23,527 nucleotides of DNA from assembly GCF_000003605.2 (NCBI RefSeq), contig NW_003114568.1, positions 1 through 23,527 of the forward strand, read 5' to 3'. The translations under genes were made by a program, and so were the position numbers. Positions 1 through 23,527 of this stretch are shown piece by piece (the first letter of the stretch is position 1; each line of letters opens with the position of its first letter). Below the pieces are notes generated by a model, which saw only the letters and a program-made list of their open reading frames with translations, had not been told where the DNA came from and searched no databases. Source of the DNA: Saccoglossus kowalevskii (lineage: Eukaryota; Hemichordata; Enteropneusta; Harrimaniidae).

Positions 1-233
1 TCATCATTGTGCAAGTTATGGCAGTTTGATAGATGTATTTGTCTATATGACCTAAGTTGGTATTATATAAAATCGCGCAGTTGTAAAGTCGACAAATTTA
101 ATAAAAGCCAGGTGAACGCCGTCTATAAATGTTCACATGAGCTGACTGTAATATGTTAGAAAACAACGTGCAAAGTTTGAAAAATCGAAGGAAATGTTGG
201 TGGAGTTGCTTGTATATTTAACCTAAGTTTTTG
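1..233 (+). repeat. Partial satellite unit at left edge
   Basis: This is the last 233 bp of a unit. It carries the TATATAAAATCGCGC variant and the GTGAAC...GTTCAC inverted repeat. The opening bases do not fit the consensus: TCATCA replaces the expected GCAAAG, and CAAGTTATGG lacks an AA present in other copies, so the first ~15 bases may be a low-quality contig end. The rest shares GGCAGTTTGAT with 19068 onward. Confidence 0.9.
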
Positions 234-242
234 TCATGACAA
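231..242. other. Perfect 12-bp palindrome TTGTCATGACAA
   Basis: This self-complementary site opens each unit and recurs at every anchor. It is imperfect only in U13 and U26 (TCATGAAAA) and U25 (GCCATGACAA), and deleted in U10. A dimeric DNA-binding protein site is possible; no specific factor can be named. Confidence 0.7.
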
Positions 243-502
243 CCCAGCAGTTAAATTTCGTAACATTAATTAATTGTATCGAGAATGCCTCATATATAAG
301 TAGATTATCACAACAGCCAACCGAAAAATCGACAACAAACTGCTTACAAAGTTGTGAAAAGCGATTGCAAAGTAGGTAGTTTCATTCCGGATTGTTACCT
401 GTTGTATCATATTAACAAGTCCCATAGTTAAAAGTTCGTAAATGTGAATAAAAATGTCCTAAATGACCGTTAAATAACCGTAGTGTTACTCCGAGTATGT
501 AG

Positions 503-515
503 AGGTCATAGGTCA
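503..515 (+). promoter_or_regulatory. DR1 motif AGGTCA-t-AGGTCA (representative, U1)
   Basis: Two perfect AGGTCA half-sites in direct repeat with one spacer base match the DR1 element bound by RXR/USP- and HNF4-type nuclear receptors. It recurs about 270 bp into each unit (for example 1429-1441 in U2). The second half-site is AGGTTA in U4, U23 and U25, the first half-site is altered in U21 and U24, and it is deleted in U10. Binding is not shown. Confidence 0.5.
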
Positions 516-640
516 ATTCTAGAAGATATTTGTGCCAGCGATATCGATTTAAAACATCTGAAAACATAAAATAGCCGCCAATTCGGCTTAGTTTCAAATA
601 ATTTATGCAGCTGTGTGTTTGGGTAACAGACAAATGTTTG

Positions 641-717
641 AAGTAAAGCACAATCGGGCGTGGTTAGCACTTGCATGGGAGACTCCCGTAGTAAACAAGG
701 TGTTGAATTGTGTTTTT
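641..717 (+). pseudogene. 5S rRNA-like segment, U1
   Basis: AAGTAAAGCACAATCGGGC aligns with box A and the intermediate element of 5S genes, ACTTGCATGGGAGAC with box C, and CAAGGTGTTG with the 5S 3' end, followed by T5. The 5' ~48 nt of 5S are not recognisable, so a mature 5S RNA cannot form. Homology is inferred by eye. Confidence 0.8.
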
Positions 718-735
718 CATCACACACAAGGACAA

Positions 736-767
736 TATATAAAGCAACGTTCCTGCTATCTTTCTCA
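736..767 (+). promoter_or_regulatory. TATA motif with initiator-like site 31 bp downstream (representative, U1)
   Basis: TATATAAAG at 736-744 is followed by CTCACTG, whose A is at 767, the spacing expected of a pol II TATA-Inr pair. Most units read CTTACTG at the same place (1661 and 1692 in U2). U5 and U18 have ACATATAAAG instead. In AT-rich DNA a TATA match alone is weak evidence. Confidence 0.35.
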
Positions 768-1041
768 CTGTAATATCAATTATTTATAGTACAAAATCGA
801 GCAATTTTTGTAACTATTTTAATTAATGAAAAGTTTTCAAATTCATTCTAATTTCAAGAACAAGTTATCGATGCTGTTGGCACGTAGTGGGTTTTAAGCT
901 GTTAAAATACCGTTCAAAGTGATTGCAAAGTTGTGCAAAGTTATGGCAAAGTTGATAGATGTATTTGTATATATGAGCTAAGTTGTTGGTATATAAAAAC
1001 GCGCAGTTGTAAAGTCGACAAATTTAATAAAAGCCAGGTGA

Positions 1042-1066
1042 ACGCAGCCTATAAATGTTCACATGA
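1042..1066. other. Inverted repeat GTGAAC...GTTCAC (representative)
   Basis: AGGTGAAC and GTTCACAT flank 13 bases that contain CTATAAAT. The inverted pair recurs in every unit that keeps this region. It could form a small stem or be a dimeric protein site; chance is not excluded. Confidence 0.4.
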
Positions 1067-1493
1067 GCTGACTGTAATATGTTAGAAAACAACGTGCAAA
1101 GTTTGAAAATCGAAGGAAATGTTGGTGGGGTTGCTTGTATATTTAACCTAAGTCTTTGTCATGACAACCCAGCAGTTAAATTTCGAAAATATTAAGTAAT
1201 TGTATCGAGAATGCCTCATATATAAGTAGATTATCACAACAGCCAACCGAAAAATCGACAACAAACTGCTTACAAAGTTGTGAAAAGCGATTGCAAAGTA
1301 GGTAGTTTCATTCCGGATTGTTACCTGTGATATCATATTAACAAGTCCCATAGTTAAAAGTTCGTAAATGTGAATGAAAATGTCCTAAATGACCGTTAAA
1401 TAACCGTAGTGTTACTCCGAGTATGTAGAGGTCATAGGTCAATTCTATAAGGTATTTGTTCCAGCGATATCGATTTAAAACATCTGAAAACAT

Positions 1494-1521
1494 GAAATAG
1501 CCGCCAATTCGGCTTAATTTC
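1494..1521. other. Imperfect hairpin beside the 5S-like segment (representative, U2)
   Basis: GAAAT-AGCCG pairs with CGGCT and ATTTC around a CCAATT loop, with a two-base bulge (TA). Many units share it. It is weakened in U4, U12, U13, U15, U16, U21 and U24 with no compensating changes seen, so a conserved RNA structure is doubtful. Confidence 0.45.
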
Positions 1522-1566
1522 AAATAATTTATGCAGCTGTGTTGTTGGGTGACCGACAAATGTTTA

Positions 1567-1642
1567 AAGTAAAGCGCAATCGGGCGTGGTTAGCACTTGC
1601 ATGGGAGACTTCCGTAGTAAACAAGCGTTGAATTTTGTTTTT
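1567..1642 (+). pseudogene. 5S rRNA-like segment, U2
   Basis: The core TCGGGCGTGGTTAG and CATGGGAGAC are present. Box A reads AAAGCGCAA, and the tail is the shorter CAAGCGTTG form with T5. Confidence 0.78.
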
Positions 1643-1840
1643 CATCGCTTACATGGACAATATATAAAGCAACGTTCCTGCTATCTTTCTTACTGTGATA
1701 TCAATTATTTATAGTGCAAAATCGTGCAATTTTTGTAACTATTTTAATTAATGGAAAGTTTTCAAATTCCTTCTAATTTTCAAGAACAAGTTATCGATGC
1801 TGTCGGCACGTAGTGGGTTTTAAGCTGTTAAACCACCGTG

Positions 1841-1878
1841 CAAAGTTGTTCAAAGTTGTGAAAAGTTATGGCAAAGTT
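1841..1878 (+). repeat. Helically phased CAAAGTT block (representative, U2)
   Basis: CAAAGTT at 1841, 1851 and 1872, with AAAAGTT at 1861, gives spacings of 10, 10 and 11 bp, close to one DNA turn. Other units have an 11-10-11 form that starts CAAAGTGATTG. Related blocks lie about 171 and 347 bp further on in the unit. Confidence 0.7.
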
Positions 1879-2084
1879 GATAGATGTATTTGTATATATG
1901 AGCTAAGTTGTTGGTATATAAAAACGGGCAGTTGTAAAGTCGACAAATTTAATAAAAGCCAGGTGAACGCAGCCTATAAATGTTCACATGAGCTGACTGT
2001 AATATGTTAGAAAACAACGTGCAAAGTTTGAAAAATCGAAGGAAATGTTGGTGGAGTTGCTTGTATATTTAACCTAAGTCCTTG

Positions 2085-3010
2085 TCATGACAACCCAGCA
2101 GTTAAATTTCGAAAACATTAAGTAATTGTATCGAAAATGCCTCATATATAAGTAGATTATCACAACAGCCAACCGAAAAATCGACAACAAACTGCTTACA
2201 AAGTTGTGAAAAGCGATTGCAAAGTAGGTAGTTACATTCCGGATTGTTACCTGTGATATCATATTAACAAGTCCCATAGTTAAAAGTTCGTAAATGTGAA
2301 TAAAAATGTCCTAAATGACCGCTAAATAACCGTAGTGTTACTCCGAGTATGTAGAGGTCATAGGTCAATTCTAGAAGATATTTGTGCCAGCGATATCGAT
2401 TTAAAACATTTGAAAACATAAAATAGCCGCCAATTCGGCTTAGTTTCAAATAATTTATGCTGCTGTGTGTTTGGGTAACAGACAAATGTTTGAAGTAAAG
2501 CACAATTGGGCGTGGTTAGCACTTGCATGGGAGACTTCCATAGTAAACAACCATTGAATTTTGTTTTTCATCGTATACATGGACAATATATAAAGCAACG
2601 TTCCTGCTGTCTTTCTTACTGTGATATCAATTATTTATAGTGCAAATTCGTGCAATTTTTGTAACTATTTTAATTAATGGAAAGTTTTCAAATTCCTTCT
2701 AATTTTCAAGAACAAGTTATCGATGCTGTCGGCACGTAGTGGGTTTTAAGCTGTCAAAACACCTTTCAAAGTGATTGCAAAGTTGTGCAAAGTTATGGCA
2801 ATTTGATAGATGTATTTGTCTATATGACCTAAGTTGGTATTATATAAAATCGCGCAGTTGTAAAGTCGACAAATTTAATAAAAGCCAGGTGAACGCAGTC
2901 TATAAATGTTCACATGAGCTGACTGTAATATGTTAGAAAACAACGTGCAAAGTTTGAAAAATCGAAGGAAATGTTGGTGGAGTTGCTTGTATATTTAACC
3001 TAAGTTTTTG
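2085..3010 (+). repeat. Satellite unit U3 (926 bp)
   Basis: It shares AGAAGATATTTGTGCC and AACATAAAATAG with U1. The 5S-like core has a C-to-T change (AATTGGGCG), and the tail is CAACCATTG. The hairpin region reads AACATTTGAAAAC, a private base. Confidence 0.95.
2493..2568 (+). pseudogene. 5S rRNA-like segment, U3
   Basis: One base of the core is changed (TTGGGCGTGG). The tail is CAACCATTG with T5. Confidence 0.77.
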
Positions 3011-3937
3011 TCATGACAACCCAGCAGTTAAATTTCGAAAACATTAAGTAATTGTATCGAGAATGCCTCATATATAAGTAGATTATCACAACAGCCAACC
3101 GAAAAATCGACAACAAACTGCTTACAAAGTTGTGAAAAGCGATTGCAAAGTAGGTAGTTTCATTCCGGATTGTTACCTGTGATATCATATTAACAAGTCC
3201 CATAGTTAAAAGTTCGTAAATGTGAATAAAAATGTCCTAAATGACCGATAAATAACCGTAGTGTTACTCCGAATATGTAGAGGTCATAGGTTAATTCTAG
3301 AAGGTATTTGTGCCAGCGATATCGATTTAAAACATCTGAAAACATGAACTAGCCGCCAATTAGGCTTAATTTCAAATAATGTATGCAGCTGTGTGGTTGG
3401 GTGACAGACAAATGTTTGAAGTAAATCACAATCGGGCGTGGTTAGCACTTGCATGGGAGACTTCCGTAGTAAACAACGTGTTGAATTGTGTTTTTCATCA
3501 CACACAAGGACAATATATAAAGCAACGTTCCTGCTATCTTTCTCACTGTGATATCAATTATTTATAGCACAAAATCGTGCAATTTTTGTAACTATTTTAA
3601 TTAATGGAAAGTTTTCAAATTCATTCTAATTTTCAAGAACAAGTTATCGATGCTGTTGGCACGTAGTGGGTTTTAAGCTGTTAAAATACCGTTCAAAGTG
3701 ATTGCAAAGTTGTGCAAAGTTATGGCAAAGTTGATAGATGTATTTGTATATATGAGCTAAGTTGTTGGTATATAAAAACGCGCAGTTGTAAAGTCGACAA
3801 ATTTAATAAAAGCCAGGTGAACGCAGCCTATAAATGTTCACATGAGCTGATTGTAATATGTTAGAAAACAACGTGCAAAGTTTGAAAATCGAAGGAAATG
3901 TTGGTGGGGTTGCTTGTATATTTAACCTAAGTCTTTG
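3011..3937 (+). repeat. Satellite unit U4 (927 bp)
   Basis: It carries GACCGATAAATAACC and AGGTTAATTC, the latter breaking the second DR1 half-site; both variants recur in U23 and U25. AACTAGCCGCCAATTAGG weakens the hairpin. The 5S-like tail keeps the GTGTTG form, which gives the extra base. Confidence 0.95.
3419..3495 (+). pseudogene. 5S rRNA-like segment, U4
   Basis: Box A is AAATCACAA. Core and box C are intact, and the tail keeps CGTGTTG before T5. Confidence 0.78.
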
Positions 3938-4864
3938 TCATGACAACCCAGCAGTTAAATTTCGAAAATATTAAGTAATTGTATCGAGAATACCTCATAT
4001 ATAAGTAGATTATCACAACAGCCAACCGAAAAATCGACAACAAACTGCTTACAAAGTTGTGAAAAGCGATTGCAAAGTAGGTAGTTTCATTCCGGATTGT
4101 TACCTGTGATATCATATTAACAAGTCCCATAGTTAAAAGTTCGTAAATGTGAATAATAATGTTCTAAATAACCGTTAAATAACCGTAGTGTTACTCCGAG
4201 TATGTAAAGGTCATAGGTCAATTCTAGAAGGTATTTGTGCCAGCGATATCGATTTAAAACATCTGAAAACATGAAATAGCCGCCAATTCGGCTTAGTTTC
4301 AAATAATTTATGCAGCTGTGTTGTTGGGTGACCGACAAATGTTTGAAGTAAAGCACAATCGGGCGTGGTTAGTACTTGCATGGGAGACTCCCGTAGTAAA
4401 CAAGGTGTTGAATTTTGTTTTTCATCACACACATGGACAACATATAAAGCAACGTTCCTGCTGTCTTTCTTACTGTGATATCAATTATTTATAGTGCAAA
4501 TTCGTGCAATTTTTGTAACTATTTTAATTAATGGAAAGTTTTCAAATTCCTGCTCATTTTAAAGAACAAGTTATCGATGCTGTCGGCACGTAGTGGGTTT
4601 TAAGCTGTCAAAACACCGTGCAAAATTGTTCAAATTTGTGCAAAGTTATGGCAAAGTTGATAGATGAATTTGTATATATGAGCTAAGTTGTTGGTATATA
4701 AAAACGCGCAGTTGTAAAGTCGACAAATTTAATAAAATCCAAGTGAACGCAGCCTATAAATGTTCACATGAGCTGACTGTAATATGTTAGAAAACAACGT
4801 GCAAAGTTTGAAAAATCGAAGGAAATGTTGGTGGAGTTGCTTGTATATTTAACCTCAGTCATTG
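3938..4864 (+). repeat. Satellite unit U5 (927 bp)
   Basis: Its 5S-like segment is among the most 5S-like copies (GTTAGTACTTG and CAAGGTGTTG). Private changes include AATAATAATGTTC for AATAAAAATGTCC near 4152 and TGCTCATTTTAAAG near 4551. The TATA motif is degraded to ACATATAAAG at 4440. Confidence 0.95.
4346..4422 (+). pseudogene. 5S rRNA-like segment, U5 (one of the closest)
   Basis: Over the 30 bases from 4360 (TCGGGC...) to 4388 or so, only two positions differ from the vertebrate (Xenopus-type) 5S sequence as I recall it: G for C in the IE and C for G in ACTTGCATGG. It also has the 5S-type GTTAGTACTTG and a CAAGGTGTTG tail, then T5. Confidence 0.82.
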
Positions 4865-5789
4865 TCATGACAATCCCGCAGTTAAGTTTGGAAAACATTA
4901 AGTAATTGTATCGAGAAAGCCTCATATATAAGCAGATAATCACAACAGCCAACCGAAAAATCGACAACAAACTGCTTACAAAGTTGTGAAAAGCGATTGC
5001 AAAGTAGGTAGTTTCATTAGGGATTGTTACCTGTGATATCATATTAACAAGTCCCATAGTTAAAAGTTCGTAAATGTGAATAAAAATGTCCTAAATGACC
5101 GTTAAATAACCGTACTGTTACTCCGAGTATGTAGAGGTCATAGGTCAATTCTAGAAGGTATTTGTGCCAGCGATATCGATTTAAAACATCTGAAAACATG
5201 AAATAGACGCCAATTCGGCTTAATTTCAAATAATGTATGCAGCTGTGTGGTTGGGTGACAGACAAATGTTTGAAGTAAATCACAATCGGGCGTGGTTAGC
5301 ACTTGCATGGGAGACTTCCGTAGTAAACAAGCGTTGAATTTTGTTTTTCATTGTATACATGGACAATATATAAATCAACGTTCCTGCTATCTTTCTTACT
5401 GTGATATAAATTATTTATAGTGCAAAATCGTGCAATTTTTGTAACTATTTTAATTAATGGAAAGTTTTCAAATTCCTTCTAATTTTCAAGAACAAGTTAT
5501 CGATGCTGTCGGCACGTAGTGGGTTTTAAGCAGTCAAAACGCCGTTCAAAGTGATTGCAAAGTTGTGCAAAGTTATGGCAATTTGATAGATGTATTTGTC
5601 TATATGACCTAAGTTGGTATTATATAAAATCGCGCAGTTGTAAAGTCGACAAATTTAATAAAAGCCAGGTGAACGCAGTCTATAAATGTTCACATGAACT
5701 GACTGTAATATGTTAGAAAACAACGTGCAAAGTTGGAAAAATCGAAAGAAATTTGGTGGAGTTGCTTGTATATTTAAGCTAAGTTTTTG
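4865..5789 (+). repeat. Satellite unit U6 (925 bp, subfamily S)
   Basis: It carries the S-type diagnostic block just after the palindrome: CAATCCCGCAGTTAAGTTTGG and AAGCAGATAATC replace CAACCCAGCAGTTAAATTTCG and AAGTAGATTATC. TTTCATTAGGGATTG is private. The right half matches the U7 and U17 group (AATGTATGCAGC). Confidence 0.95.
5273..5348 (+). pseudogene. 5S rRNA-like segment, U6
   Basis: Core and box C are intact with AAATCACAA in box A. The tail is CAAGCGTTG, then T5. Confidence 0.78.
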
Positions 5790-6715
5790 TCATGACAACC
5801 CAGCAGTTAAATTTCGAAAACATTAAGTAATTTTATCGAGAATGCCTCATATATAAGTAGATTATCACAACAACCAACCGAAAAATCGACAACAAACTGC
5901 TTACAAAGTTGTGAAAAGCGATTGCAAAGTAGGTAGTTTCATTCCGGATTGTTACCTGTGATATCATATTAACAAGTCCTATAGTTAAAAGTTCGTAAAT
6001 GTGAATAAAAATGTCCTAAATGACCGTTAAATAACCGTAGTGTTACTCCGAGTATGTTGAGGTCATAGGTCAATTCTAGAAGGTATTTGTGCCAGCGATA
6101 TCGATTTAAAACATCTGAAAACATGAAATAGCCGCCAATTCGGCTTAATTTCAAATAATGTATGCAGCTGTGTAGTTGGGTGGCAGACAAATGTTTGAAG
6201 TAAATCACAATCGGGCGTGGTTAGCACTTGGATGGGAGACTTCCGTAGTAAACAAGCGTAGAATTTTGTTTTTCATCGCATACATGGACAATATATAAAG
6301 CAACGTTCCTGTTATCTTTTTTACTGTGATATCAATTATTTATAGTGCAAAATTTTGCAATTTTTGTAACTATTTTAATTAATGGAAAGTTTTCAAATTC
6401 CTTCTAATTTTCAAGAACAAGTTATCGATGCTGTCGGCACGTAGTGGGTTTTAAGCTGTCAAAACACCGTTCAAAGTGATTGCAAAATTGTGCAAAGTTA
6501 TGGCAATTTGATAGATGTATTTGTATATATGACCTAAGTTGGTATTATATAAAATCGCGCAGTTTTAAAGTCGACAAATTTAATAAAAGCCAGGTGAACG
6601 CAGTCTATAAATGTTCACAACAGCTGACTGTAATATGTTAGAAAACAACGTGCAAAGTTGGAAAAATCGAAGGAAATGTTGGTGGAGTTGCTTGTATATT
6701 TAACCTAAGTTTTTG
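5790..6715 (+). repeat. Satellite unit U7 (926 bp)
   Basis: Its box C-like segment reads CACTTGGATGGGAGAC, the canonical 5S form that only U17 shares. From about 6150 to the end it closely follows the right half of U17 (TGTAGTTGGGTG, GCAAAATTGTGC, GCAGTTTTAAAG, CACAACAGCTG), which suggests common descent of that stretch. Confidence 0.95.
6198..6273 (+). pseudogene. 5S rRNA-like segment, U7 (canonical box C)
   Basis: CACTTGGATGGGAGAC is the exact 5S box C sequence, unlike the CTTGCATGG of most copies. The tail is CAAGCGTAG with T5. Confidence 0.82.
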
Positions 6716-7641
6716 TCATGACAACCCAGCAGTTAAATTTCGAAAACATTAAGTAATTGTATCGAGAATGCCTTATATATAAGTAGATTATCACAACAGC
6801 CAACCGAAAAATCGACAACAAACTGCTTACAAAGTTGTGAAAAGCGATTGCAAAGTAGGTAGTTTCATTCCGGATTGTTACCTGTGATATCATATTAACA
6901 AGTCCCATAGTTAAAAGTTCGTAAATGTGAATAAAAATGTCCTAAATGACCGTTAAATAACCGTAGTGTTACTCCGAGTATGTAGAGGTCATAGGTCAAT
7001 TCTAGAAGGTATTTGTTCCAGCGATATCGATTTAAAACATCTGAAAACATGAAATAGCCGCCAATTCGGCTTAATTTCAAATAATTTGTGTAGCTGTGTT
7101 GTTGGGTGACCGACAAATGTTTAAAGTAAAGCGCAATCGGGCGTGGTTAGCACTTGCATGGGAGACTTCCGTAGTAAACAAGCGTTGAATTTTGTTTTTC
7201 ATCGCATACATGGACAATATATAAAGCAACGTTCCTGCTGTCTTTCTTATTGTGATATCAATTATTTATAGTACAACATCGTGCAATTTTTGTAACTATT
7301 TTAATTAATGGAAAGTTTTCAAATTCCTTCTAATTTTCAAGAACAAGTTATCGATGCTGTCGGCACGTAGTGGGTTTTAAGCTGTCAAAACACCGTTCAA
7401 AGTGATTGCAAAATTGTGCAAAGTTATGGCAATTTGATAGATGTATTTGTATATATGACCTAAGTTGGTATTATATAAAATCGCGCAGTTTTAAAGTCGA
7501 CAAATTTAATAAAAGCCAGGTGAACGCAGTCTATAAATGTTCACAACAGCTGACTGTAATATGTTAGAAAACAACGTGCAAAGTTGGAAAAATCGAAGGA
7601 AATGTTGGTGGAGTTGCTTGTATATTTAACCTAAGTTTTTG
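6716..7641 (+). repeat. Satellite unit U8 (926 bp)
   Basis: It is almost identical to U9 and U20, with shared markers AATTTGTGTAGCTG, GCTGTCTTTCTTATTG and GCAAAATTGTGC. Differences from U9 seen by eye are few: CCTTATATAT for CCTCATATAT, GTAGGTAGTTTC for TTAGGTAGTTAC, and ACAACATCG for GCAAAATCG. Confidence 0.95.
7124..7199 (+). pseudogene. 5S rRNA-like segment, U8
   Basis: Identical in form to U2 (AAAGCGCAA, CAAGCGTTG, T5). Confidence 0.78.
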
Positions 7642-8505
7642 TCATGACAACCCAGCAGTTAAATTTCGAAAACATTAAGTAATTGTATCGAGAATGCCTC
7701 ATATATAAGTAGATTATCACAACAGCCAACCGAAAAATCGACAACAAACTGCTTACAAAGTTGTGAAAAGCGATTGCAAATTAGGTAGTTACATTCCGGA
7801 TTGTTACCTGTGATATCATATTAACAAGTCCCATAGTTAAAAGTTCGTAAATGTGAATAAAAATGTCCTAAATGACCGTTAAATAACCGTAGTGTTACTC
7901 CGAGTATGTAGAGGTCATAGGTCAATTCTAGAAGGTATTTGTTCCAGCGATATCGATTTAAAACATCTGAAAACATGAAATAGCCGCCAATTCGGCTTAA
8001 TTTCAAATAATTTGTGTAGCTGTGTTGTTGGGTGACCGACAAATGTTTAAAGTAAAGCGCAATCGGGCGTGGTTAGCACTTGCATGGGAGACTTCCGTAG
8101 TAAACAAGCGTTGAATTTTGTTTTTCATCGCATACATGGACAATATATAAAGCAACGTTCCTGCTGTCTTTCTTATTGTGATATCAATTATTTATAGTGC
8201 AAAATCGTGCAATTTTTGTAACTATTTTAATTAATGGAAAGTTTTCAAATTCCTTCTAATTTTCAAGAACAAGTTATCGATGCTGTCGGCACGTAGTGGG
8301 TTTTAAGCTGTCAAAACACCGTTCAAAGTGATTGCAAAATTGTGCAAAGTTATGGCAATTTGATAGATGTATTTGTATATATGACCTAAGTTGGTATTAT
8401 ATAAAATCGCGCAGTTTTAAAGTCGACAAATTTAATAAAAGCCAGGTGAACGCAGTCTATAAATGTTCACAACAGCTGACTGTAATATGTTAGAAAACAA
8501 CATGC
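7642..8505 (+). repeat. Satellite unit U9, 3' end deleted (864 bp)
   Basis: It is a near-copy of U8 up to about 8500, where GAAAACAACATGC runs directly into GGCCAATTCGG. The last ~62 bp of the unit are missing. One substitution in the minus-strand frame of the left half creates a stop codon at GCAAATTAGG (7776). Confidence 0.92.
8050..8125 (+). pseudogene. 5S rRNA-like segment, U9
   Basis: Same as U8. It lies about 380 bp before the deletion junction and is complete. Confidence 0.78.
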
Positions 8506-8510
8506 GGCCA
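8498..8510 (+). other. Deletion junction between U9 and U10
   Basis: AACAACATGC, expected to continue CAAAGTTGG, instead runs into GGCCAATTCGG. The two parent sequences share GC at the breakpoint. Anchor spacing (1,448 bp instead of 1,852) puts the loss at about 404 bp. Confidence 0.88.
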
Positions 8511-9089
8511 ATTCGGCTTAGTTTCAAATAATTTGTGCAGCTGTGTTGTTGGGTAACAGACAAAAGTTTGTAGTAAAGCACAATCGGGCGTGGTTAGTAC
8601 TTGCATGGGAGACTCTTGTAGTAAACAAGGGGTTGAATTTTGTTTTTCATCACACACATGGACAATATATAAAGCAACGTTCCTGCTGTCTTTCTCACTG
8701 TGATATCAATTATTTATAGTGCAAATTCGTGCAATTTTTGTAACTATTTTAATTAATGGAAAGTTTTCAAATTCCTTCTAATTTTCAAGAACAAGTTATC
8801 GATGCTGTCGGCACGTAGTGGGTTTTAAGCTGTCAAAACACCGTTCAAAGTGATTGCAAAGTTGTGCAAAGTTATGGCAATTTGATAGATGTATTTGTCT
8901 ATATGACCTAAGTTGGTATTATATAAAATCGCGCAGTTGTAAAGTCGACAAATTTAATAAAAGCCAGGTGAACGCCGTCTATAAATGTTCACATGAGCTG
9001 ACTGTAATATGTTAGAAAACAACGTGCAAAGTTTGAAAAATCGAAGGAAATGTTGGTGGAGTTGCTTGTATATTTAACCTAAGTTTTTG
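8506..9089 (+). repeat. Satellite unit U10, 5' end deleted (584 bp)
   Basis: About 342 bp are missing from its start, including the palindrome, the DR1 site and the middle CAAAG block. It keeps the hairpin's right arm, the 5S-like segment, the TATA motif and the rest. GACTCTTGTAG and CAAGGGGTTG tie it to U19. Confidence 0.92.
8571..8647 (+). pseudogene. 5S rRNA-like segment, U10
   Basis: It is retained although the first third of the unit is deleted. It starts TAGTAAAGC rather than AAGTAAAGC, has GTTAGTACTTG, then GACTCTTG and CAAGGGGTTG with T5. Confidence 0.78.
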
Positions 9090-10015
9090 TCATGACAACC
9101 CAGCAGTTAAATTTCGTAAACATTAAGTAATTGTATCGAGAATGCCTCATATATAAGTAGATTATCACAACAGCCAACCGAAAAATCGACAACAAACTGC
9201 TTACAAAGTTGTGAAAAGCGATTGCAAAGTAGGTAGTTTCATTCCGGATTGTTACCTGCGATATCATATTAACAAGTCCCATAGTTAAAAGTTCGTAAAT
9301 GTGAATAAAAATGTCCTAAATGACCGTTAAATAACCGTAGTGTTACTCCGAGTATGTAGAGGTCATAGGTCAATTCTATAAGGTATTTGTTCCAGCGATA
9401 TCGATTTAAAACATCTGAAAACATGAAATAGCCGCCAATTCGGCTTAATTTCAAATAATTTATGCAGCTGTGTTGTTGGGTGACCGACAAATGTTTAAAG
9501 TAAAGCACAATCGGGCGTGGTTAGCACTTGCATGGGAGACTTCCGTAGTAAACAAGCGTTGAATTTTGTTTTTCATCGCATACATGGACAATATATAAAG
9601 CAACGTTCCTGCTATCTTTCTTACTGTGATATCAATTATTTATAGTGCAAAATCGTGCAATTTTTGTAACTATTTTAATTAATGGAAAGTTTTCAAATTC
9701 CTTCTAATTTTCAAGAACAAGTTATCGATGCTGTCGGCACGTAGTGGGTTTTAAGCTGTTAAACCACCGTTCAAAGTGATTGCAAAGTTGTGCAAAGTTA
9801 TGGCAAAGTTGATAGATGTATTTGTATATATGAGCTAAGTTGTTGGTATATAAAAACGCGCAGTTGTAAAGTCGACAAATTTAATAAAAGCCAGGTGAAC
9901 GCAGCCTATAAATGTTCACATGAGCTGACTGTAATATGTTAGAAAACAACGTGCAAAGTTTGATAATCGAAGGAAATGTTGGTGGGGTTGCTTGTATATT
10001 TAACCTAAGTCTTTG
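9090..10015 (+). repeat. Satellite unit U11 (926 bp)
   Basis: TTTCGTAAACATTAAG resembles an intermediate between the standard and the U1/U22 variants. The right half is the TCTATAAGGTATTTGTTCC type. The end reads GTTTGATAATCG, a private base. Confidence 0.95.
9498..9573 (+). pseudogene. 5S rRNA-like segment, U11
   Basis: Core and box C intact, box A AAAGCACAA, tail CAAGCGTTG, T5. Confidence 0.78.
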
Positions 10016-10940
10016 TCATGACAACCCAGCAGTTAAATTTCGAAAATATTAAGTAATTGTATCGAGAATGCCTCATATATAAGTAGATTATCACAACAGC
10101 CAACCGAAAAATCGACAACAAACTGCTTACAAAGTTGTGAAAAGCGATTGCAAAGTAGGTAGTTACATTCGGATTGTTACCTGTGATATCATATTAACAA
10201 GTCCCATAGTTAAAAGTTCGTAAATGTGAATAAAAATGTCCTAAATGACCGTTAAATAACCGTAGTGTTACTCCGAGTATGTAGAGGTCATAGGTCAATT
10301 CTATAAGGTATTTGTTCCAGCGATATCGATTTAAAACATCTGAAAACATGAAATAGCCGCCAATTCGACTTAATTTCAAATAATTTATGCAGCTGTGTTG
10401 TTGGGTGACCGACAAATGTTTAAAGTAAAGCGCAATCGGGCGTGGTTAGCACTTGCATGGGAGACTTCCGTAGTGAACAAGCGTTGAATTTTGTTTTTCA
10501 TCGCATACATGGACAATATATAAAGCAACGTTCCTGCTATCTTTCTCACTGTGATATCAATTATTTGTAGTACAAAATCGTGCAATTTTTGTAACTATTT
10601 TAATTAATGGAAAGTTTTCAAATTCATTCTAATTTTCAAGAACAAGTTATCGATGCTGTTGGCACGTAGTGGATTTTAAGCTGTTAAAATACCGTTCAAA
10701 GTGATTGCAATGTTGTGCAAAGTTATGGCAAAGTTGATAGATGTATTTGTATATATGAGCTAAGTTGTTGGTATATAAAAACGCGCAGTTGAAAAGTCGA
10801 CAAATTTAATAAAAGCCAGGTGAACGCAGCCTATAAATGTTCACATGAGCTGACTGTAATATGTTAGAAAACAACGTGCAAAGTTTGAAAATCGAAGGAA
10901 ATGTTGGTGGGGTTGCTTGTATATTTAACCTAAGTCTTTG
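10016..10940 (+). repeat. Satellite unit U12 (925 bp)
   Basis: A one-base deletion gives ACATTCGGATTG where others have ATTCCGGATTG (near 10167). AATTCGACTTAA breaks the hairpin stem. ATTTGTAGTAC near 10563 and GCAATGTTGTGC near 10708 are private. Confidence 0.95.
10423..10498 (+). pseudogene. 5S rRNA-like segment, U12
   Basis: Core and box C intact; GTAGTGAACAAG is a private change in the tail. T5 present. Confidence 0.78.
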
Positions 10941-10990
10941 TCATGAAAACCCAGCAGTTAAATTTCGAAAATATTAAGTAATTGTATCGA

Positions 10991-11006
10991 GAATGCCTGA
11001 ATGCCT
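10991..11006 (+). repeat. 8-bp tandem duplication of GAATGCCT in U13
   Basis: GAATGCCT is present twice in direct contact; every other unit that keeps the region has one copy, with point variants. It looks like a slippage event and accounts for most of the extra length of U13. Confidence 0.9.
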
Positions 11007-11356
11007 CATATATAAGTAGATTATCACAACAGCCAACCGAAAAATCGACAAAAAACTGCTTACAAAGTTGTGAAAAGCGATTGCAAAGTAGGTAGTTTCA
11101 TTCCGGATTGTTACCTGTGATATCATATTAACAAGTCCCATAGTTAAAAGTTTGTAAATGTGAATAAAAATGTCCTAAATGACCGTTAAATAACCGTAGT
11201 GTTACTCCGAGTATGTAGAGGTCATAGGTCAATTCTATAAGGTATTTGTTCCAGCGATATCGATTTAAAACATCTGAAAACATGAAATAGCCGCCAATTC
11301 GCCTTAATTTCAAATAATTTATGCAGCTGTGTTGTTGGGTGACCGACAAATGTTTA

Positions 11357-11431
11357 AAGTAAAGCGCAATCGGGCGTGGTTAGCACTTGCATGGGAGACT
11401 TCGTAGTAAACATGCGTTGAATTTTGTTTTT
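11357..11431 (+). pseudogene. 5S rRNA-like segment, U13
   Basis: A one-base loss after box C (GACTTCGTAG) and CATGCGTTG in the tail. T5 present. Confidence 0.76.
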
Positions 11432-11873
11432 CATCGCATACATGGACAATATATAAAGCAACGTTCCTGCTATCTTTCTTACTGTGATATCAATTATTTA
11501 TAGTGCAAAATCGTGCAATTTATGTAACTATTTTAATTAATGGAAAGTTTTCAAATTCCTTCTAATTTTCAAGAAAAAGATATCGATGCTGTCGGCACGT
11601 AGTGGGTTTTAAGCTGTTAAAACACCGTGCAAAGTTGTTCAAAGTTGTGTAAAGTTATGGCAAAGTTGATAGATGTATTTGTATATATGAGCTAAGTTGT
11701 TGGTATATAAAAATGCGCAGTTGTACAGTCGACAAAGTTAATAAAAGCCAGGTGAACGCAGTCTGTAAATGTTCACATGAGCTGACTGTAATATGTTAGA
11801 AAACAACGTGCAAAGTTGGAAAAATCGAAGGAAATGTTGGTGGAGTAGCTTGTATATTTAACCTAAGTCTTTG

Positions 11874-12799
11874 TCATGACAACCCAGCAGTTAAATTTCG
11901 AAAACATTAAGTAATTGTATCGAGAATGCCTCATATATAAGTAGATTATCACAACAGCCAGCCGAAAAATCGACAACAAACTGCTTACAAAGTTGTGAAA
12001 AGCGATTGCAAAGTAGGTAGTTTCATTCCGGATTGTTACCTGTGATATCATATTAACAAGTCCCATAGTTAAAAGTTCGTTAATGTGAATAAAAATGTCC
12101 TAAATGACCGTTAAATAACCGTAGTGTTACTCCGAGTATGTAGAGGTCATAGGTCAATTCTAGAAGGTATTTGTTCCAGCGATATCGATTTAAAACATCT
12201 GAAAACATGAAATAGCCGCCAATTCGGCTTAATTTCAAATAATTTATGCAGCTGTGTTGTTGGGTGACCGACAAATTTTTAAAGTAAAGCGCAATCGGGC
12301 GTGGTTAGCACTTGCATGGGAGACTTCCGCAGTAAACAAGCGTTGACTTTTGTTTTTCATCGCATACATGGACAATATATAAAGCAACGTTCCTGCTATC
12401 TTTCTTACTGTGATATTAATTATTTATAGTGCAAAATCGTGCAATTTTTGTAACTATTTTAATTAATGGAAAGTTTTCAAATTCCTTCTAATTTTCAAGA
12501 ACAAGTTATCGATGCTGTCGTCACGTAGTGGGTTTTAAGCTGTTAAAACACCGTGCAAAGTTGTTCAAAGTTGTGAAAAGTTAGGGCAAAGTTGATAGAT
12601 GTATTTGTATATATGAGCTAAGTTGTTGGTATACAAAAACGCGCAGTTGTAAAGTCGACAAATTTAATAAAATCCAGGTGAACGCAGCCTATAAATGTTC
12701 ACAACAGCTGACTGTAGTATGTTAGAAAACAACGTGCAAAGTTGGAAAAATCGAAGGAAATGTTGGCAGAGCTGCTTGTATATTTAACCTCAGTCATTG
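11874..12799 (+). repeat. Satellite unit U14 (926 bp, first of a triplet)
   Basis: Its left part and the preceding ~240 bp share AATGCGCAGTTGTACAG, GCAGTCTGTAAATG, GTGGAGTAGC and ACAGCCAGCCG with U17, 2,777 bp downstream. It is the first member of the duplicated three-unit block. Confidence 0.95.
12282..12357 (+). pseudogene. 5S rRNA-like segment, U14
   Basis: Core and box C intact; the tail reads CCGCAGTAAACAAG and GTTGACTTTTG before T5. Confidence 0.78.
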
Positions 12800-13725
12800 T
12801 CATGACAATCCCGCAGTTAAGTTTGGAAAACATTAAGTAATTGTATCGAGAATGCCTCATATATAAGCAGATAATCACAACAGCCAACCGAAAAATCGAC
12901 AACAAACTGCTTACAAAGTTGTGAAAAGCGATTGCAAAGTAGGTAGTTTCATTCGGGATTGTTACCTGTGATATCATATTAACAAATCCCATAGTTAAAA
13001 GTTCGTAAATGTGAATAAAAATGTCCTAAATGACCGTTAAATAACCGTAGTGTTACTCCGAGTATGTAGAGGTCATAGGTCAATTCTAGAAGGTATTTGT
13101 TCCAGCGATATCGATTTAAAACATCTGAAAACATGAACTAGCCGCCAATTCGGCTTAATTTCAAATAATGTATTCAGCTGTGTGATTGGGTGAGAGACAA
13201 ATGTTTGAAGTAAATCACAATCGGGCGTGGTTAGCACTTGCATGTGAGACTTCCATAGTAAACAACCGTTGAATTTTGTTTTCCATCGTATACATGGACA
13301 ATATATAAAGCAACGTTCCTGCTATCTTTCTTACTGTGATATCAATTATTTATAGTGCAAAATCGTGCAATTTTTGTAACTATTTTAATTAATGGAAAGT
13401 TTTCAAATTCCTTCTCATTTTCAAGAACAAGTTATCGATGCTGTCGGCACGTAGTGGGTTTTAAGCTGTCAAAACACCGTTCAAAGTAATTGCAAAGTTG
13501 TGCAAAGTTATGGCAATTTGATTGATGTATTTGTATATATGACCTAAGTTGGTATTATATAAAATCGCGCAGTTGTAAAGTAGACAAATTTAATAAAAGC
13601 CAGGTGAACGCAGCCTATAAATGTTCACAACACCTGACTGTAATATGTTAGAAAACAACGTGCAAAGTTGGAAAAATCGAAGGAAATGTTGGGAGAGCTG
13701 CTTGTATATTTAACCTCAGTCATTG
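12800..13725 (+). repeat. Satellite unit U15 (926 bp, subfamily S)
   Basis: It carries the S-type block and pairs with U18 in the three-unit pattern. CATGTGAGAC alters box C, and the T-run after the 5S-like segment is reduced to four (GTTTTCC). AACTAGCCG weakens the hairpin. Confidence 0.95.
13208..13282 (+). pseudogene. 5S rRNA-like segment, U15 (T-run shortened)
   Basis: Box C is changed to CATGTGAGAC, the tail is CAACCGTTG, and only four T follow (GTTTTCC). Confidence 0.75.
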
Positions 13726-14650
13726 TCATGACAATCCCGCAGTTACGTTTGGAAAACATTAAGTAATTGTATCGAGAATGCCTCATATATAAGCAGATAA
13801 TCACAACAGCCAACCGAAAAATCGACAACAAACTGCTTACAAAGTTGTGAAAAGCGGTTGCAAAGTAGGTAGTTTCATTCCGGATTGTTACCTGTGATAT
13901 CATATTAACAAGTCCCATAGTTAAACGTTCGTAAATGTGAATAAAAATGTCCTAAATGACCGTTAAATAACCTAGTGTTACTCCGAGTATGTAGAGGTCA
14001 TAGGTCAATTCTAGAAGGTACTTGTGCCAGCGATATCGATTTAAAATATCTGAAAACATGAAATAGCGGCCAATTCGGCTTAGTTTCAAATAATTTATGC
14101 AGCTGTGTTGTTGGGTGACCGACAAATGTTTGAAGTAAAGCGCAATCGGGCGTGGTTAGCACTTGCATGGAAGACTTCCGTAGTAAACAAGCGTTGAATT
14201 TTGTTTTTCATCGCATACATGGACAATATATAAAGCAACGTTCCTGCTATCTTTCTTACTGTGATATCAATTATTTATAGTGCGAAATCGTGCAATTTTT
14301 GTAACTATTTTAATTAATGGACAGTTTTCAAATTCCTTCTAATTTTCAAGAAAAAGATATCGATGCTGTCGGCACGTAGTGGGTTTTAAGCTGTAAAAAC
14401 ACCGTGCAAAGTTGTTCAAAGTTGTGTAAAGTTATGGCAAAGTTGATAGATGTATTTGTATATATGAGCTAAGTTGTTGGTATATAAAAATGCGCAGTTG
14501 TACAGTCGACAAAGTTAATAAAAGCCAGGTGAACGCAGTCTGTAAATGTTCACATGAGCTGACTGTAATATGTTAGAAAACAACGTGCAAAGTTGGAAAA
14601 ATCGAAGGAAATGTTGGTGGAGTAGCTTGTATATTTAACCTAAGTCTTTG
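13726..14650 (+). repeat. Satellite unit U16 (925 bp, subfamily S)
   Basis: It shares GCAGTTACGTTTGG, AAGCGGTTGC, TTAAACGTTCG, AATAACCTAGTG (a 2-bp loss) and GGTACTTGTGCC with U19, 2,778 bp away. The match fades after about 14045. TAGCGGCCAATT changes the hairpin arm. Confidence 0.95.
14133..14208 (+). pseudogene. 5S rRNA-like segment, U16
   Basis: Box C reads CATGGAAGAC. Core, CAAGCGTTG tail and T5 are intact. Confidence 0.77.
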
Positions 14651-15576
14651 TCATGACAACCCAGCAGTTAAATTTCGAAAACATTAAGTAATTGTATCGA
14701 GAATGCCTCATATATAAGTAGATTATCACAACAGCCAGCCGAAAAATCGACAACAAACTGCTTACAAAGTTGTGAAAAGCGATTGCAAAGTAGGTAGTTT
14801 CATTCCGGATTGTTACCTGTGATATCATATTAACAAGTTCCATAGTTAAAAGTTCGTAAATGTGAATAAAAATGTCCTAAATGACCGTTAAATAACCGTA
14901 GTGTTACTCCGAGTATGTAGAGGTCACAGGTCAATTCTAGAAGGTATTTGTGCCAGCGATATCGATTTAAAACATCTGAAAACATGAAATAGCCGCCAAT
15001 TCGGCTTAATTTCAAATAATGTATGCAGCTGTGTAGTTGGGTGACAGACAAATGTTTGAAGTAAATCACAATCGGGCGTGGTTAGCACTTGGATGGGAGA
15101 CTTCCGTAGTAAACAAGCGTTGAATTTTGTTTTTCATTGTATACATGGACAATATATAAAGCAACGTTCCTGCTATCTTTCTTACTGTGATATCAATTAT
15201 TTATAGTGCAAAATCGTGCGATTTTTGTAACTATTTTAATTAATGGAAAGTTTTCAAATTCCTTCTAATTTTCAAGAACAAGTTATCGATGCTGTCGGCA
15301 CGTAGTGGGTTTTAAGCTGTCAAAACACCGTTCAAAGTGATTGCAAAATTGTGCAAAGTTATGGCAATTTGATAGATGTATTTGTATATATGATCTAAGT
15401 TGGTATTATATAAAATCGCGCAGTTTTAAAGTCGACAAATTTAATAAAAGCCAGGTGAACGCAGTCTATAAATGTTCACAACAGCTGACTGTAATATGTT
15501 AGAAAACAACGTGTAAAGTTGGAAAAATCGAAGGAAATGTTGGTGGAGTTGCTTGTATATTTAACCACAGTCATTG
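14651..15576 (+). repeat. Satellite unit U17 (926 bp, hybrid)
   Basis: The left half matches U14, and the right half from about 14950 matches U7, including the canonical CACTTGGATGGGAGAC. The DR1 spacer is C rather than T (AGGTCAcAGGTCA). The switch suggests exchange within the unit. Confidence 0.95.
15059..15134 (+). pseudogene. 5S rRNA-like segment, U17 (canonical box C)
   Basis: CACTTGGATGGGAGAC matches 5S box C exactly, as in U7. Tail CAAGCGTTG with T5. Confidence 0.82.
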
Positions 15577-16503
15577 TCATGACAATCCCGCAGTTAAGTT
15601 TGGAAAACATTAAGTAATTGTATCGAGAAAGCCTCATATATAAGCAGATAATCACAACAGCCAACCGAAAAATCGACAACAAACTGCTTACAAAGTTGTG
15701 AAAATCGATTGCAAAGTAGATAGTTTCATTCCGGATTGTTACCTGTGATATCATATTAACAAGTCCCATAGTTAAAAGTTCGTAAATGTGAATAAAAATG
15801 TCCTAAATGACCGTTAAATAACCGTAGTGTTACTCCGAGTATGTAGAGGTCATAGGTCAATTCTAGAAGGTATTTGTGCCAGCGATATCGATTTAAAACA
15901 TCTGAAAACATGAAATAGCCGCCAATTCGGCTTAATTTCAAATAATTTATTCAGCTGTGTTGTTGGGTGACCGACAAATGTTTGAAGTAAAGCACAATCG
16001 GGCGTGGTTAGCACTTACATGGGAGACTCCCGTAGTAAACAAGGTGTTGAATTTTGTTTGTCATCACACACATGGACAACATATAAAGCAACGTTGCTGC
16101 TATCTTTCTTACTGTGATATCAATTATTTATAGTGCAAAATCTTGCAATTTTTGTAACTATTTTAATTAATGGAAAGTTTTCAAATTCCTTCTAATTTTC
16201 AAGAACAAGATTATCGATGCTGTCGGCACGTAGTGGGTTTTAAGCTGCCAAAACACGTTCAAAGTGATTGCAAAGTTGTGCAAAGTTATGGCAATTTGAT
16301 AGATGTATTTGTCTATATGACCTAAGTTGGTATTATATAAAATCGCGCAGTTGTAAAGTCGACAAATTTAATAAAAGCCAGGTGAACGCAGCCTATAAAT
16401 GTTCACATGAGCTGACTGTAATACGTTAGAAAACAACGTGCAAAGTTTGAAAAATCGAAGGAAATGTTGGTGGAGTTGCTTGTATATTTAACCTCAGTCA
16501 TTG
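15577..16503 (+). repeat. Satellite unit U18 (927 bp, subfamily S)
   Basis: It carries the S-type block and pairs with U15. The 5S-like tail keeps CAAGGTGTTG, but the T-run is broken (TTTGTC) and the core reads CACTTACATGGG. The TATA motif is changed to ACATATAAAG at 16079. Confidence 0.95.
15985..16059 (+). pseudogene. 5S rRNA-like segment, U18 (T-run broken)
   Basis: CACTTACATGGGAGAC and the 5S-like CAAGGTGTTG tail are present. The expected T5 is interrupted (TTTGTC). Confidence 0.76.
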
Positions 16504-17429
16504 TCATGACAATCCCGCAGTTACGTTTGGAAAACATTAAGTAATTGTATCGAGAATGCCTCATATATAAGCAGATAATCACAACAGCCAACCGAAAAAT
16601 CGACAACAAACTGCTTACAAAGTTGTGAAAAGCGGTTGCAAAGTAGGTAGTTTCATTCCGGATTGTTACCTGTGATATCATATTAACAAGTCCCATAGTT
16701 AAACGTTCGTAAATGTGAATAAAAATGTCCTAAATGACCGTTAAATAACCTAGTGTTACTCCGAGTATGTAGAGGTCATAGGTCAATTCTAGAAGGTACT
16801 TGTGCCAGCGATATCGATTTAAAACATCGGAAAACAAGAAATAGCCGCCAATTCGGCTTGGTTTCAAATAATTTATGCAGCTGTGTTGTTGGGTGACCGA
16901 CAAATGTTTGAAGTAAAGCACAATCGGGCGTGGTTAGTACTTGCATGGGAGACTCTTGTAGTAAACAAGGGGTTGAATTTTGTTTTTCATCACACACATG
17001 GACAATATATAAAGCAACGTTCCTGCTGTCTTTCTTACTGTGATATCAATTATTTATAGTGCAAAATCGTGCAATTTTTGTAACTATTTTAATTAATGGA
17101 AAGTTTTCAAATTCCTTCTAATTTTCAAGAACAAGTTATCAATGCTGTCGGCACGTAGTGGGTTTTAAGCTGTCAAAACACCGTTCAAAGTGATTGCAAA
17201 GTTGTGCAAAGTTATGGCAATTTGATAGATGTATTTGTCTATATGACCTAAGTTGGTATTATATAAAATCGCGCAGTTGTAACGTCGACAAATTTAATAA
17301 AAGCCAGGTGAACGCCGTCTATAAATGTTCACATGAGCTGACTGTAATATGTTAGAAAACAACGTGCAAAGTTTGAAAAATCGAAGGAAATGTTGGTGGA
17401 GTTGCTTGTATATTTAACCTAAGTTTTTG
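16504..17429 (+). repeat. Satellite unit U19 (926 bp, S type, end of triplet)
   Basis: Its left half matches U16. The right half carries GACTCTTGTAG and CAAGGGGTTG, shared with the truncated U10. CATCGGAAAACAAGAAATAG and GGCTTGGTTTC are private changes around the hairpin. Confidence 0.95.
16911..16987 (+). pseudogene. 5S rRNA-like segment, U19
   Basis: GTTAGTACTTG as in 5S, then GACTCTTG and CAAGGGGTTG as in U10. T5 present. Confidence 0.78.
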
Positions 17430-18355
17430 TCATGACAACCCAGCAGTTAAATTTCGAAAACATTAAGTAATTGTATCGAGAATGCCTCATATATAAGTAG
17501 ATTATCACAACAGCCAACCGAAAAATCGACAACAAACTGCTTACAAAGTTGTGAAAAGCGATTGCAAAGTAGGTAGTTTCATTCCGGATTGTTACCTGTG
17601 ATATCATATTAACAAGTCCCATAGTTAAAAGTTCGTAAATGTGAATAAAAATGTCCTAAATGACCGTTAAATAACCGTAGTGTTACTCCGAGTATGTAGA
17701 GGTCATAGGTCAATTCTAGAAGGTATTTGTTCCAGCGATATCGATTTAAAACATCTGAAAACATGAAATAGCCGCCAATTCGGCTTAATTTCAAATAATT
17801 TGTGTAGCTGTGTTGTTGGGTGACCGACAAATGTTTAAAGTAAAGCGCAATCGGGCGTGGTTAGCACTTGCATGGGAGACTTCCGTAGTAAACAAGCGTT
17901 GAATTTTGTTTTTCATCGCATACATGGACAATATATAAAGCAACGTTCCTGCTGTCTTTCTTATTGTGATATCAATTATTTATAGTGCAAAATCGTGCAA
18001 TTTTTGTAACTATTTTAATTAATGGAAAGTTTTCAAATTCCTTCTAATTTTCAAGAACAAGTTATCGATGCTGTCGGCACGTAGTGGGTTTTAAGCTGTC
18101 AAAACACCGTTCAAAGTGATTGCAAAATTGTGCAAAGTTATGGCAATTTGATAGATGTATTTGTATATATGACCTAAGTTGGTATTATATAAAATCGCGC
18201 AGTTTTAAAGTCGACAAATTTAATAAAAGCCAGGTGAACGCAGTCTATAAATGTTCACAACAGCTGACTGTAATATGTTAGAAAACAACGTGCAAAGTTT
18301 GAAAAATCGAAAGAAATGTTGGTGGAGTTGCTTGTATATTTAACCTAAGTTTTTG
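17430..18355 (+). repeat. Satellite unit U20 (926 bp)
   Basis: It is near-identical to U8 and U9 (AATTTGTGTAGCTG, GCTGTCTTTCTTATTG, GCAGTTTTAAAG) although it lies more than 9 kb away. The similarity fades near the end, where GTTTGAAAAATCGAAAG replaces GTTGGAAAAATCGAAGG. Confidence 0.95.
17838..17913 (+). pseudogene. 5S rRNA-like segment, U20
   Basis: Same form as U8 and U9, with T5. Confidence 0.78.
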
Positions 18356-22986: not shown

Positions 22987-23527
22987 TCATGAAAACCCAG
23001 CAGTTAAATTTCGAAAACATTAAGCAATTGTATCGAGAATGCCTCATATATAAGTAGATTATCACAACAGCCAACCGAAAAATCGACAACAAACTGCTTA
23101 CAAAGTTGTGAAAAGCGATTGCAAAGTAGGTAGTTTCATTCCGGATTTTTACCTGCGATATCATGTTAACAAGTCCCATAGTTAAAAGTTCGTAAATGTG
23201 AATAAAAATGTCCTAAATGACCGTTAAATAACCGTAGTGTTACTCCGAGTATGTAGAGGTCATAGGTCAATTCTAGAAGATATTTGTGCCAGCGATATCG
23301 ATTTAAAACATCTGAAAACATGAAATAGCCGCCAATTCGGCTTAGTTTCAAATAATTTATGCAGCTGCGTTTTTGGGTGACCGACAAATGTTTGAAGTAA
23401 AGCACAATCGGGCGTGGTTAGCACTTGCATGGTAGACTTCCGTAGTAAACAAGCGTTGAATTTTGTCTTTCATCGCATACATGGACATTATATAAAGCAA
23501 CGTCCTGCTATCTTTCTTACTGTGTGA
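22987..23527 (+). repeat. Satellite unit U26, cut by right window edge (541 bp)
   Basis: The palindrome is broken (TCATGAAAA). Toward the edge there are several unusual changes in ~70 bp: TTTTGTCTTTC, ACATTATATAAAG, CAACGTCCTGC (one base missing) and a final TGTGTGA in place of TGTGATA. These look like a low-quality contig end. Confidence 0.93.
23395..23470 (+). pseudogene. 5S rRNA-like segment, U26
   Basis: Box C reads CATGGTAGAC, and the T-run is broken (TTTTGTCTTTC). It lies in the noisy right edge. Confidence 0.74.

Follow-up and report, generated by a model that had tools for sequence, protein, structure and literature searches.

The window, by which we mean the whole stretch of DNA analysed (23,527 nucleotides), is one head-to-tail satellite array that fills 1..23527 of the + strand. 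It comprises 26 units bearing a 5S rRNA-like module, all on a single strand, the outermost two units being incomplete. The spacing is 925-934 bp throughout, the sole exception being a step of 521 bp at U9, and the unit is ~926-927 bp long, with a consensus of 927 bases drawn from the 24 full units, among which the mean number of pairwise differences is 46. The unit has a G+C of 0.35 and a CpG observed/expected ratio of 1.14, i.e. without depletion, a value that would suit an invertebrate host better than a vertebrate one. U9 (8002-8522) lacks unit positions 503-907 (405 bases) relative to its neighbour U8, whilst retaining the 5S module; the junction of this deletion adjoins a CGGCCAATTCGGCT stretch. 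No higher-order pattern emerged among the 24 full units: the distance between closest relatives ranges from 1 to 23 units and follows no regular period.

Composition of the repeat unit

More than half of the unit consists of three related sub-repeats of 176-182 bases, at unit positions ~312-493, 494-669 and 670-845, whose pairwise alignments stand well above shuffled sequence (z 8.0, 5.3 and 4.7) and which recur at the same places in the other full units. The rest of the unit is unrelated to them: neither unit 111-311 nor unit 846-110, which holds the 5S segment, aligns to the sub-repeats (z -2.1 to 1.6), and a profile of the three found no match in the remainder of the unit. The idea that the ~178-bp sub-repeats are themselves decayed 5S units was rejected, since the 5S-bearing part fails to align to them. 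The unit is thus a composite of a ~178-base repeat and a ~393-base block that holds the 5S piece, the block being the unit minus the three sub-repeats, with limits uncertain by tens of bases; ~80 bp separate the last sub-repeat from 5S position 1. An older satellite of ~178 bases, near nucleosome spacing, seems to underlie the array. The unit also holds an exact 11-base direct repeat, CTGTGATATCA, at unit 175 and 734 (559 bases apart), which the sub-repeats do not explain.

Little else of a recognisable kind was found in the array. A tRNA scan of the window returned 0 genes, and an Rfam scan returned no other RNA family up to E 1 apart from 5S. Spliced-leader or snRNA genes can be linked to 5S; such a linked gene was rejected here, as the consensus contains no strict Sm site (taken as RAT4-6GR) on either strand and no Rfam match was found. 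A 97-aa ORF occurs on the minus strand of six units (e.g. 4764-5057), and a Pfam scan of two of these six gave nothing above the cut-off, with one SmpB line at E 0.19; we attribute them to chance in a repeat that has been homogenised. No relatives were found in phages or plasmids by blastn, nor exact unit patterns in viral or genome contig collections, absences that mean little as these collections were not made for animal DNA.

Table 1. Positions in the window of the repeat unit, its sub-repeats and the 5S-like features
Feature	Coordinates	Strand	Remark
Unit U1 as cut here	593..1518	+	unit position 1 = 5S position 1, ungapped register
Three degenerate ~178-bp sub-repeats, U1	904..1437 (~904-1085, 1086-1261, 1262-1437)	+	from consensus, +/- a base or so
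Box A-like (5S 50-64), U1	642..656	+	consensus 10/15 vs human
IE-like (5S 67-72), U1	659..664	+	5/6 vs human
Box C-like (5S 80-97), U1	672..689	+	13/18 vs human
Faint 3' continuation (5S 92-114), U1	684..706	+	U5, same GGTGTTG variant: 11-13/23
T5 run at the place of the 5S terminator, U1	713..717	+	
5S 48-91 match, U1	640..683	+	
5S 48-91 match, U2	1566..1609	+	
5S 48-91 match, U3	2492..2535	+	core altered
5S 48-91 match, U4	3418..3461	+	
5S 48-91 match, U5	4345..4388	+	copy found by Rfam; 37/44 vs human
5S 48-91 match, U6	5272..5315	+	
5S 48-91 match, U7	6197..6240	+	GGATGGGAGAC
5S 48-91 match, U8	7123..7166	+	
5S 48-91 match, U9	8049..8092	+	truncated unit
5S 48-91 match, U10	8570..8613	+	
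5S 48-91 match, U11	9497..9540	+	
5S 48-91 match, U12	10422..10465	+	
5S 48-91 match, U13	11356..11399	+	
5S 48-91 match, U14	12281..12324	+	
5S 48-91 match, U15	13207..13250	+	
5S 48-91 match, U16	14132..14175	+	
5S 48-91 match, U17	15058..15101	+	GGATGGGAGAC
5S 48-91 match, U18	15984..16027	+	
5S 48-91 match, U19	16910..16953	+	
5S 48-91 match, U20	17837..17880	+	
5S 48-91 match, U21	18763..18806	+	
5S 48-91 match, U22	19688..19731	+	
5S 48-91 match, U23	20614..20657	+	
5S 48-91 match, U24	21540..21583	+	core altered
5S 48-91 match, U25	22468..22511	+	
5S 48-91 match, U26	23394..23437	+	

The 5S-like segment and its extent

The sequence-only reading had placed a + strand segment of 5S type in every unit, and indeed all 26 carry one, as an ungapped match to positions 48-91 of animal 5S. 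The 13-base core CGGGCGTGGTTAG, allowing up to two mismatches, occurs at 26 sites on the + strand and at none on the - strand, against an expectation of 0.09; its exact form was recovered in 24 of the 26 copies, just as the sequence-only reading had counted, with alterations at 2507 (U3) and 21555 (U24). The remaining motif counts were borne out in the same way: box C reads CACTTGGATGGGAGAC in U7 and U17 (2/26), and what had been described as one base off in most other copies is the form CACTTGCATGGGAGAC, present in 15/26, whilst the GGTGTTG 3' end said to survive in some units ahead of a T5 run is found in 4/26, and the T5 itself in 23/26. A run of at least four T lies downstream of the module in every copy, and the exact core, ATGGGAGAC and T4 are jointly present in 20 of the 26.

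Over 5S 48-91 the ungapped identity of the consensus is 36/44 with human, 36/44 with Xenopus, 34/44 with Drosophila and 30/44 with C. elegans, and in a profile of these four animal sequences the stretch ranks 1/1854 across offsets and strands. Of the comparison sequences, the human one is partly confirmed, four words of it being printed in an excerpt of PMC6962460. When the consensus is locally aligned with human 5S the score is 48, where the maximum among 1000 dinucleotide shuffles, both strands considered, is 26. Under two scorings, human, Xenopus and Drosophila 5S exceed all 1000 shuffles; C. elegans is weaker (6/1000 and 1/1000 shuffles as good), as is Arabidopsis (14/1000 and 0/1000), and yeast 5S gives no signal (610/1000 and 715/1000). 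The source of the segment therefore looks animal-type. Against human 5S, the consensus retains 10/15 positions of box A, 5/6 of IE and 13/18 of box C, within limits that we take to be those listed in Table 1. With three boxes in order, a T-run where the 5S gene ends, and a shuffle test by which part of the unit is, with statistical certainty, homologous to 5S, the alignments convincingly point to a 5S origin for the segment, as the sequence-only reading had proposed; it lies on the + strand and in register without indels over 48-91.

Covariance models tell a less emphatic story. The Rfam search suggested by the sequence-only reading fell short: the best score of RF00001 on the window is 23.5 bits, below the gathering score of 38 (E 0.72), and U5 is the sole copy listed up to E 1. 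Searched alone, a 221-base stretch around U5 gives E 0.0068, a value to be read in the knowledge that the stretch was picked after seeing the match. The outcome is thus split, with Rfam below its threshold and pairwise alignment far above shuffles. A second model, built from the four animal 5S sequences (0.79 effective sequences) and run with default filters, picks up 11 of the 26 copies when E is allowed to reach 10, the best value being 0.0053, and returns no match at that level for the other 15. Nine of its 11 matches have a shortened loop and start from unit position 11, two use another start, and all 11, like the RF00001 match, span model positions 1-120. In these 11 rows 74.7% of pairs are standard, as against 33-45% in slid versions, and a covariation score is reached by 1/500 shuffles, both values coming from rows that were fitted to the structure. 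Two-sided changes are concentrated in helix I (6/7 such pairs), with at most 2 cells of 11 per pair. Good as they look, these pair counts fall short of proof of a full-length relic, the structure having guided the alignment from which they come; a full-length decayed 5S gene, tried as a candidate, is likewise left ambiguous by that fitting and by the 15 copies without a match. Folding gave no 5S-like fold in six stretches taken from five units (z -0.06 to -1.70): a two-helix arm near helices II-III appears in two of the six minimum-energy folds (U1 and U3), and in no case is helix I closed from end to end.

How much of the gene, then, is left? In register, identity over 5S 1-47 is 13-20/47 for the four animal sequences (12/47 for Arabidopsis), compared with 30-36/44 over 48-91. 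The fall is steep for human (15/47 vs 36/44, p=2e-6) and also for Drosophila (20/47 vs 34/44, p=0.001). This points to truncation or unequal loss and not merely to a distant 5S gene, because the five 5S sequences compared keep pairwise identities of 0.60-0.91 in 1-47 (0.64-0.98 in 48-91). Some hints speak for the possible survival of a decayed 5' third, contrary to the capture of a truncated piece: Drosophila's 20/47 is reached at 0.3% of offsets and C. elegans's 17/47 at 3.9%, whilst the other three of the five are unremarkable, and a profile of 5S 1-47 ranks 28/1854. On the 3' side, 5S 92-114 is identical at 6-9/23 positions in the consensus and at 11-13/23 in U5, which keeps the GGTGTTG end, a level that 0.1-1.4% of offsets reach. 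Gene coverage is therefore clear over 48-91, partial over 92-114, and near noise with hints of remains over 1-47. The earlier description, a missing 5' third and a match from 49 to ~115, is a fair one: the stretch 48-91 is certain and 92-114 likely, whereas 1-47 is either absent or decayed. The picture of the segment as an island of GC similarly holds for part of it: unit 48-91 has a GC of 0.52 against 0.35 for the whole unit, a value reached by 1.8% of equal-length windows, but 49-125 as a whole stands at 0.43, which 9.6% of such windows reach, so that the GC excess belongs mostly to the core.

Variation among the copies

The sequence-only reading allowed that the module could bind TFIIIA or drive pol III transcription; had it been kept for such a function, one might expect it to vary less than its surroundings. 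It does not. Among the 24 full units, diversity over 48-114 is 0.070, compared with 0.047 for the whole unit, and 90% of equal-length windows do not exceed the segment's value (for 48-91 the figure is 67%). Variable sites make up 25/67 of 48-114 against 207/860 elsewhere (p=0.02), and 13/44 of 48-91 against 219/883, or 25%, elsewhere (p=0.48). Of the seven regions compared, box C varies most, at 10/18 sites (p=0.005); box A has 4/15, and IE, with 1/6, is too short to test. These p values belong to 14 tests and are uncorrected, and when only sites with a minor count of at least 2 are considered, no difference in any of the seven reaches the 0.05 level. Part of the excess variation in the segment arises because G/C sites vary more than A/T sites across the unit (0.36 vs 0.19), although G/C sites are at least as variable inside 48-114 as elsewhere (0.50 vs 0.34). 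The exactness of the core in 24 of 26 copies is nothing special: it is exact in 22 of the 24 full units, and 17% of unit 13-mers are at least as conserved.

There is, then, no sign among the units of present constraint on the 5S segment, in a comparison whose power is limited because the low diversity between copies reflects homogenisation. The longest invariant stretches in the 24 units, of 19-20 bases, lie at unit 870-889, 216-235 and 672-690, all outside the 5S segment; constraint, if any exists, may reside there.

Origin of the segment and known 5S-bearing repeats

We favour, with a probability of roughly 65%, the reading that the segment is a fossil fragment of an animal 5S gene, namely of its internal control region, carried as a drifting passenger in a composite ~927-bp satellite. 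A 5S fragment would have entered an older repeat once, borne either by a truncated or decaying 5S copy or by a retroelement with a 5S-derived head, the 5' third of which had diverged beforehand. Multiplication of the unit, and its homogenisation via unequal exchange and conversion, would then have followed, and the segment would now drift along with the unit, presumably as a passive passenger. TFIIIA or pol III contact, where any is left, would be residual. The comparisons that follow draw on excerpts of the papers cited.

Two routes to such a fossil overlap with this reading. Perhaps the units are head-to-tail copies of a TRIM similar to Ajax or Cassandra, with its LTR and internal part, or perhaps the satellite built up around a SINE3 copy with a 5S head; either would have multiplied at first via a pol III transcript and later by recombination. 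We regard this as a tentative candidate. Ajax LTRs retain box A, IE and box C of 5S only, and in SINE3 families the promoter is best conserved and the upstream part more divergent (excerpts of PMC10886601), HaSE3 being most 5S-like in its promoter (in the excerpted part of PMC3272025). Cassandra forms long tandem arrays in which internal domains space the 5S domains (PMC7215508, in excerpt), and arrays of the animal tRNA-type TRIM LTR-11_DR are mentioned in the PMC10886601 excerpt. In length, and in length alone, the ~393-bp block here is close to PxSE4/PxSE5 (389 bp) and to Ajax (421-434 bp), and if the unit is viewed as a circle the two CTGTGATATCA copies, 368 bp apart that way round, bracket the module. 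Yet the left copy of that 11-mer sits within the third sub-repeat, which leaves no clean target-site duplication; the 5S head of a SINE should open the element, whereas ~80 bp precede 5S position 1; and the + strand of the window holds no Cassandra-type PBS (TGGTATCAGAGC) beyond one match with 3 mismatches, the 42 matches on the - strand (2-3 mismatches) coming mostly from the repeated 11-mer. The second route, somewhat doubtful in our view, would make the array a degenerate branch of the host 5S rDNA, gene and spacer, that lost its function and drifted. Tandem single-module units on one strand with a T-run at the 5S end are what it would produce, the possible remains of a whole gene in the covariance matches and their pairs suit it, and both PcP190 and 5SHindIII derive from 5S rDNA (PMC11675491 and PMC2713275, as excerpted). 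Those precedents, however, keep ~120 bp at 70% similarity or 95 bp, as opposed to 44 clear bp and a 5' third near noise here, and a plain spacer need not have three related ~178-bp sub-repeats.

Could selection instead be maintaining the module as a functional type 1 pol III promoter, one that yields short satellite RNAs or serves as a sink for TFIIIA? The boxes are ordered and correctly spaced without indels over 48-91 in all copies, 20 of which keep core, ATGGGAGAC and T4 together, and identity drops close to the promoter limits. The boxes themselves speak otherwise: box C is the most variable region of those compared, 5S G82 is replaced by C in 24/26 copies, box A matches at only 10 of its 15 positions, and its position 56 has gone from G to T in 7/24 full units. 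We consider a working promoter improbable. A related reading, which we regard as unlikely, is that of a promoter-only 5S relic, whose control region selection would have preserved as the remainder of the gene decayed, in an array that is or was lately pol III-transcribed and TFIIIA-binding and that possibly came from an animal 5S-promoter TRIM or SINE inserted in an older ~178-bp satellite; past promoter selection would also leave identity falling steeply close to the limits of the promoter. That the 5S match is a chance resemblance is suggested by little beyond the sub-gathering Rfam score and its E of 0.72 for the window; with a pairwise score almost twice that of the top shuffle among 1000, and at the conserved promoter part of 5S, we find this extremely improbable.

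A fossil fragment carried as a passenger, the reading we prefer, has company among satellites derived from 5S, which, as the sequence-only reading noted, are known elsewhere (PcP190, PMC11675491; 5SHindIII, PMC2713275, both in excerpt). PcP190 of hyloid frogs has a ~190-bp unit with a 120-bp conserved region ~70% similar to the 5S gene, and gives transcripts from the entire repeat, of unclear role (excerpt of PMC11675491). Like the array described here it is a tandem satellite in which a 5S-derived part lies beside an unrelated one, but our unit is ~927 bp with ~44 clear 5S bases, and those are not its conserved part. In Hoplias malabaricus, the 360-bp unit of 5SHindIII-DNA joins 95 bp of 5S to 265 bp resembling the host 5S spacer (PMC2713275, in its excerpted text); it too is a satellite with a truncated 5S part, though its unit is far shorter and its 5S part longer than the 44 clear bp of the ~927-bp unit. 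A 5S rDNA-derived satellite is also cited for the Plantago lagopus B chromosome (in the excerpt of PMC12692304), but that one is from a plant, and the module here is animal-type.

Retroelements offer the other comparison. Box A, IE and box C, which TRIMs with a 5S promoter carry, are recognisable in our repeat, and the Ajax TRIMs of nemerteans (421-434 bp) share with it the retention of the box A-IE-box C part of 5S only (excerpt of PMC10886601). In the lepidopteran SINE3 elements HaSE3 and PxSE4/5 the promoter is likewise best conserved (PMC10886601, PMC3272025 and PMC8010984, in excerpt). Ajax and these SINEs differ, as far as the excerpts describe them, in that they are retroelements known as dispersed copies; they have target-site duplications, and either LTRs with a PBS or tails of LINE type. 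Plant Cassandra elements, with head-to-tail arrays and one 5S promoter per unit (PMC7215508, in excerpt), come closer in organisation, but they carry plant 5S and a TGGTATCAGAGC PBS, whereas the module here matches Arabidopsis 5S poorly and lacks that site. More broadly, satellites derived from SINEs occur in reptiles, and in Tribolium freemani a satellite and Jockey-like elements are joined to 5S genes (excerpts of PMC10702118 and PMC11202950).

A literature search not aimed at a named host turned up no description of this very satellite. The array adds a satellite in which the promoter part alone of 5S is clearly recognisable, a state met otherwise, in the sources as excerpted, only in the retroelement Ajax, and whose unit is built from two sources. 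If it were pol III-transcribed, it would be a clean system in which to ask whether internal promoters aid satellites in spreading or in forming heterochromatin. It also carries a caution: box motifs that vary as freely as the rest of a satellite are no evidence of a working promoter. Most likely, the 5S piece in each unit is a leftover passenger like those known in fish, frogs and plants.
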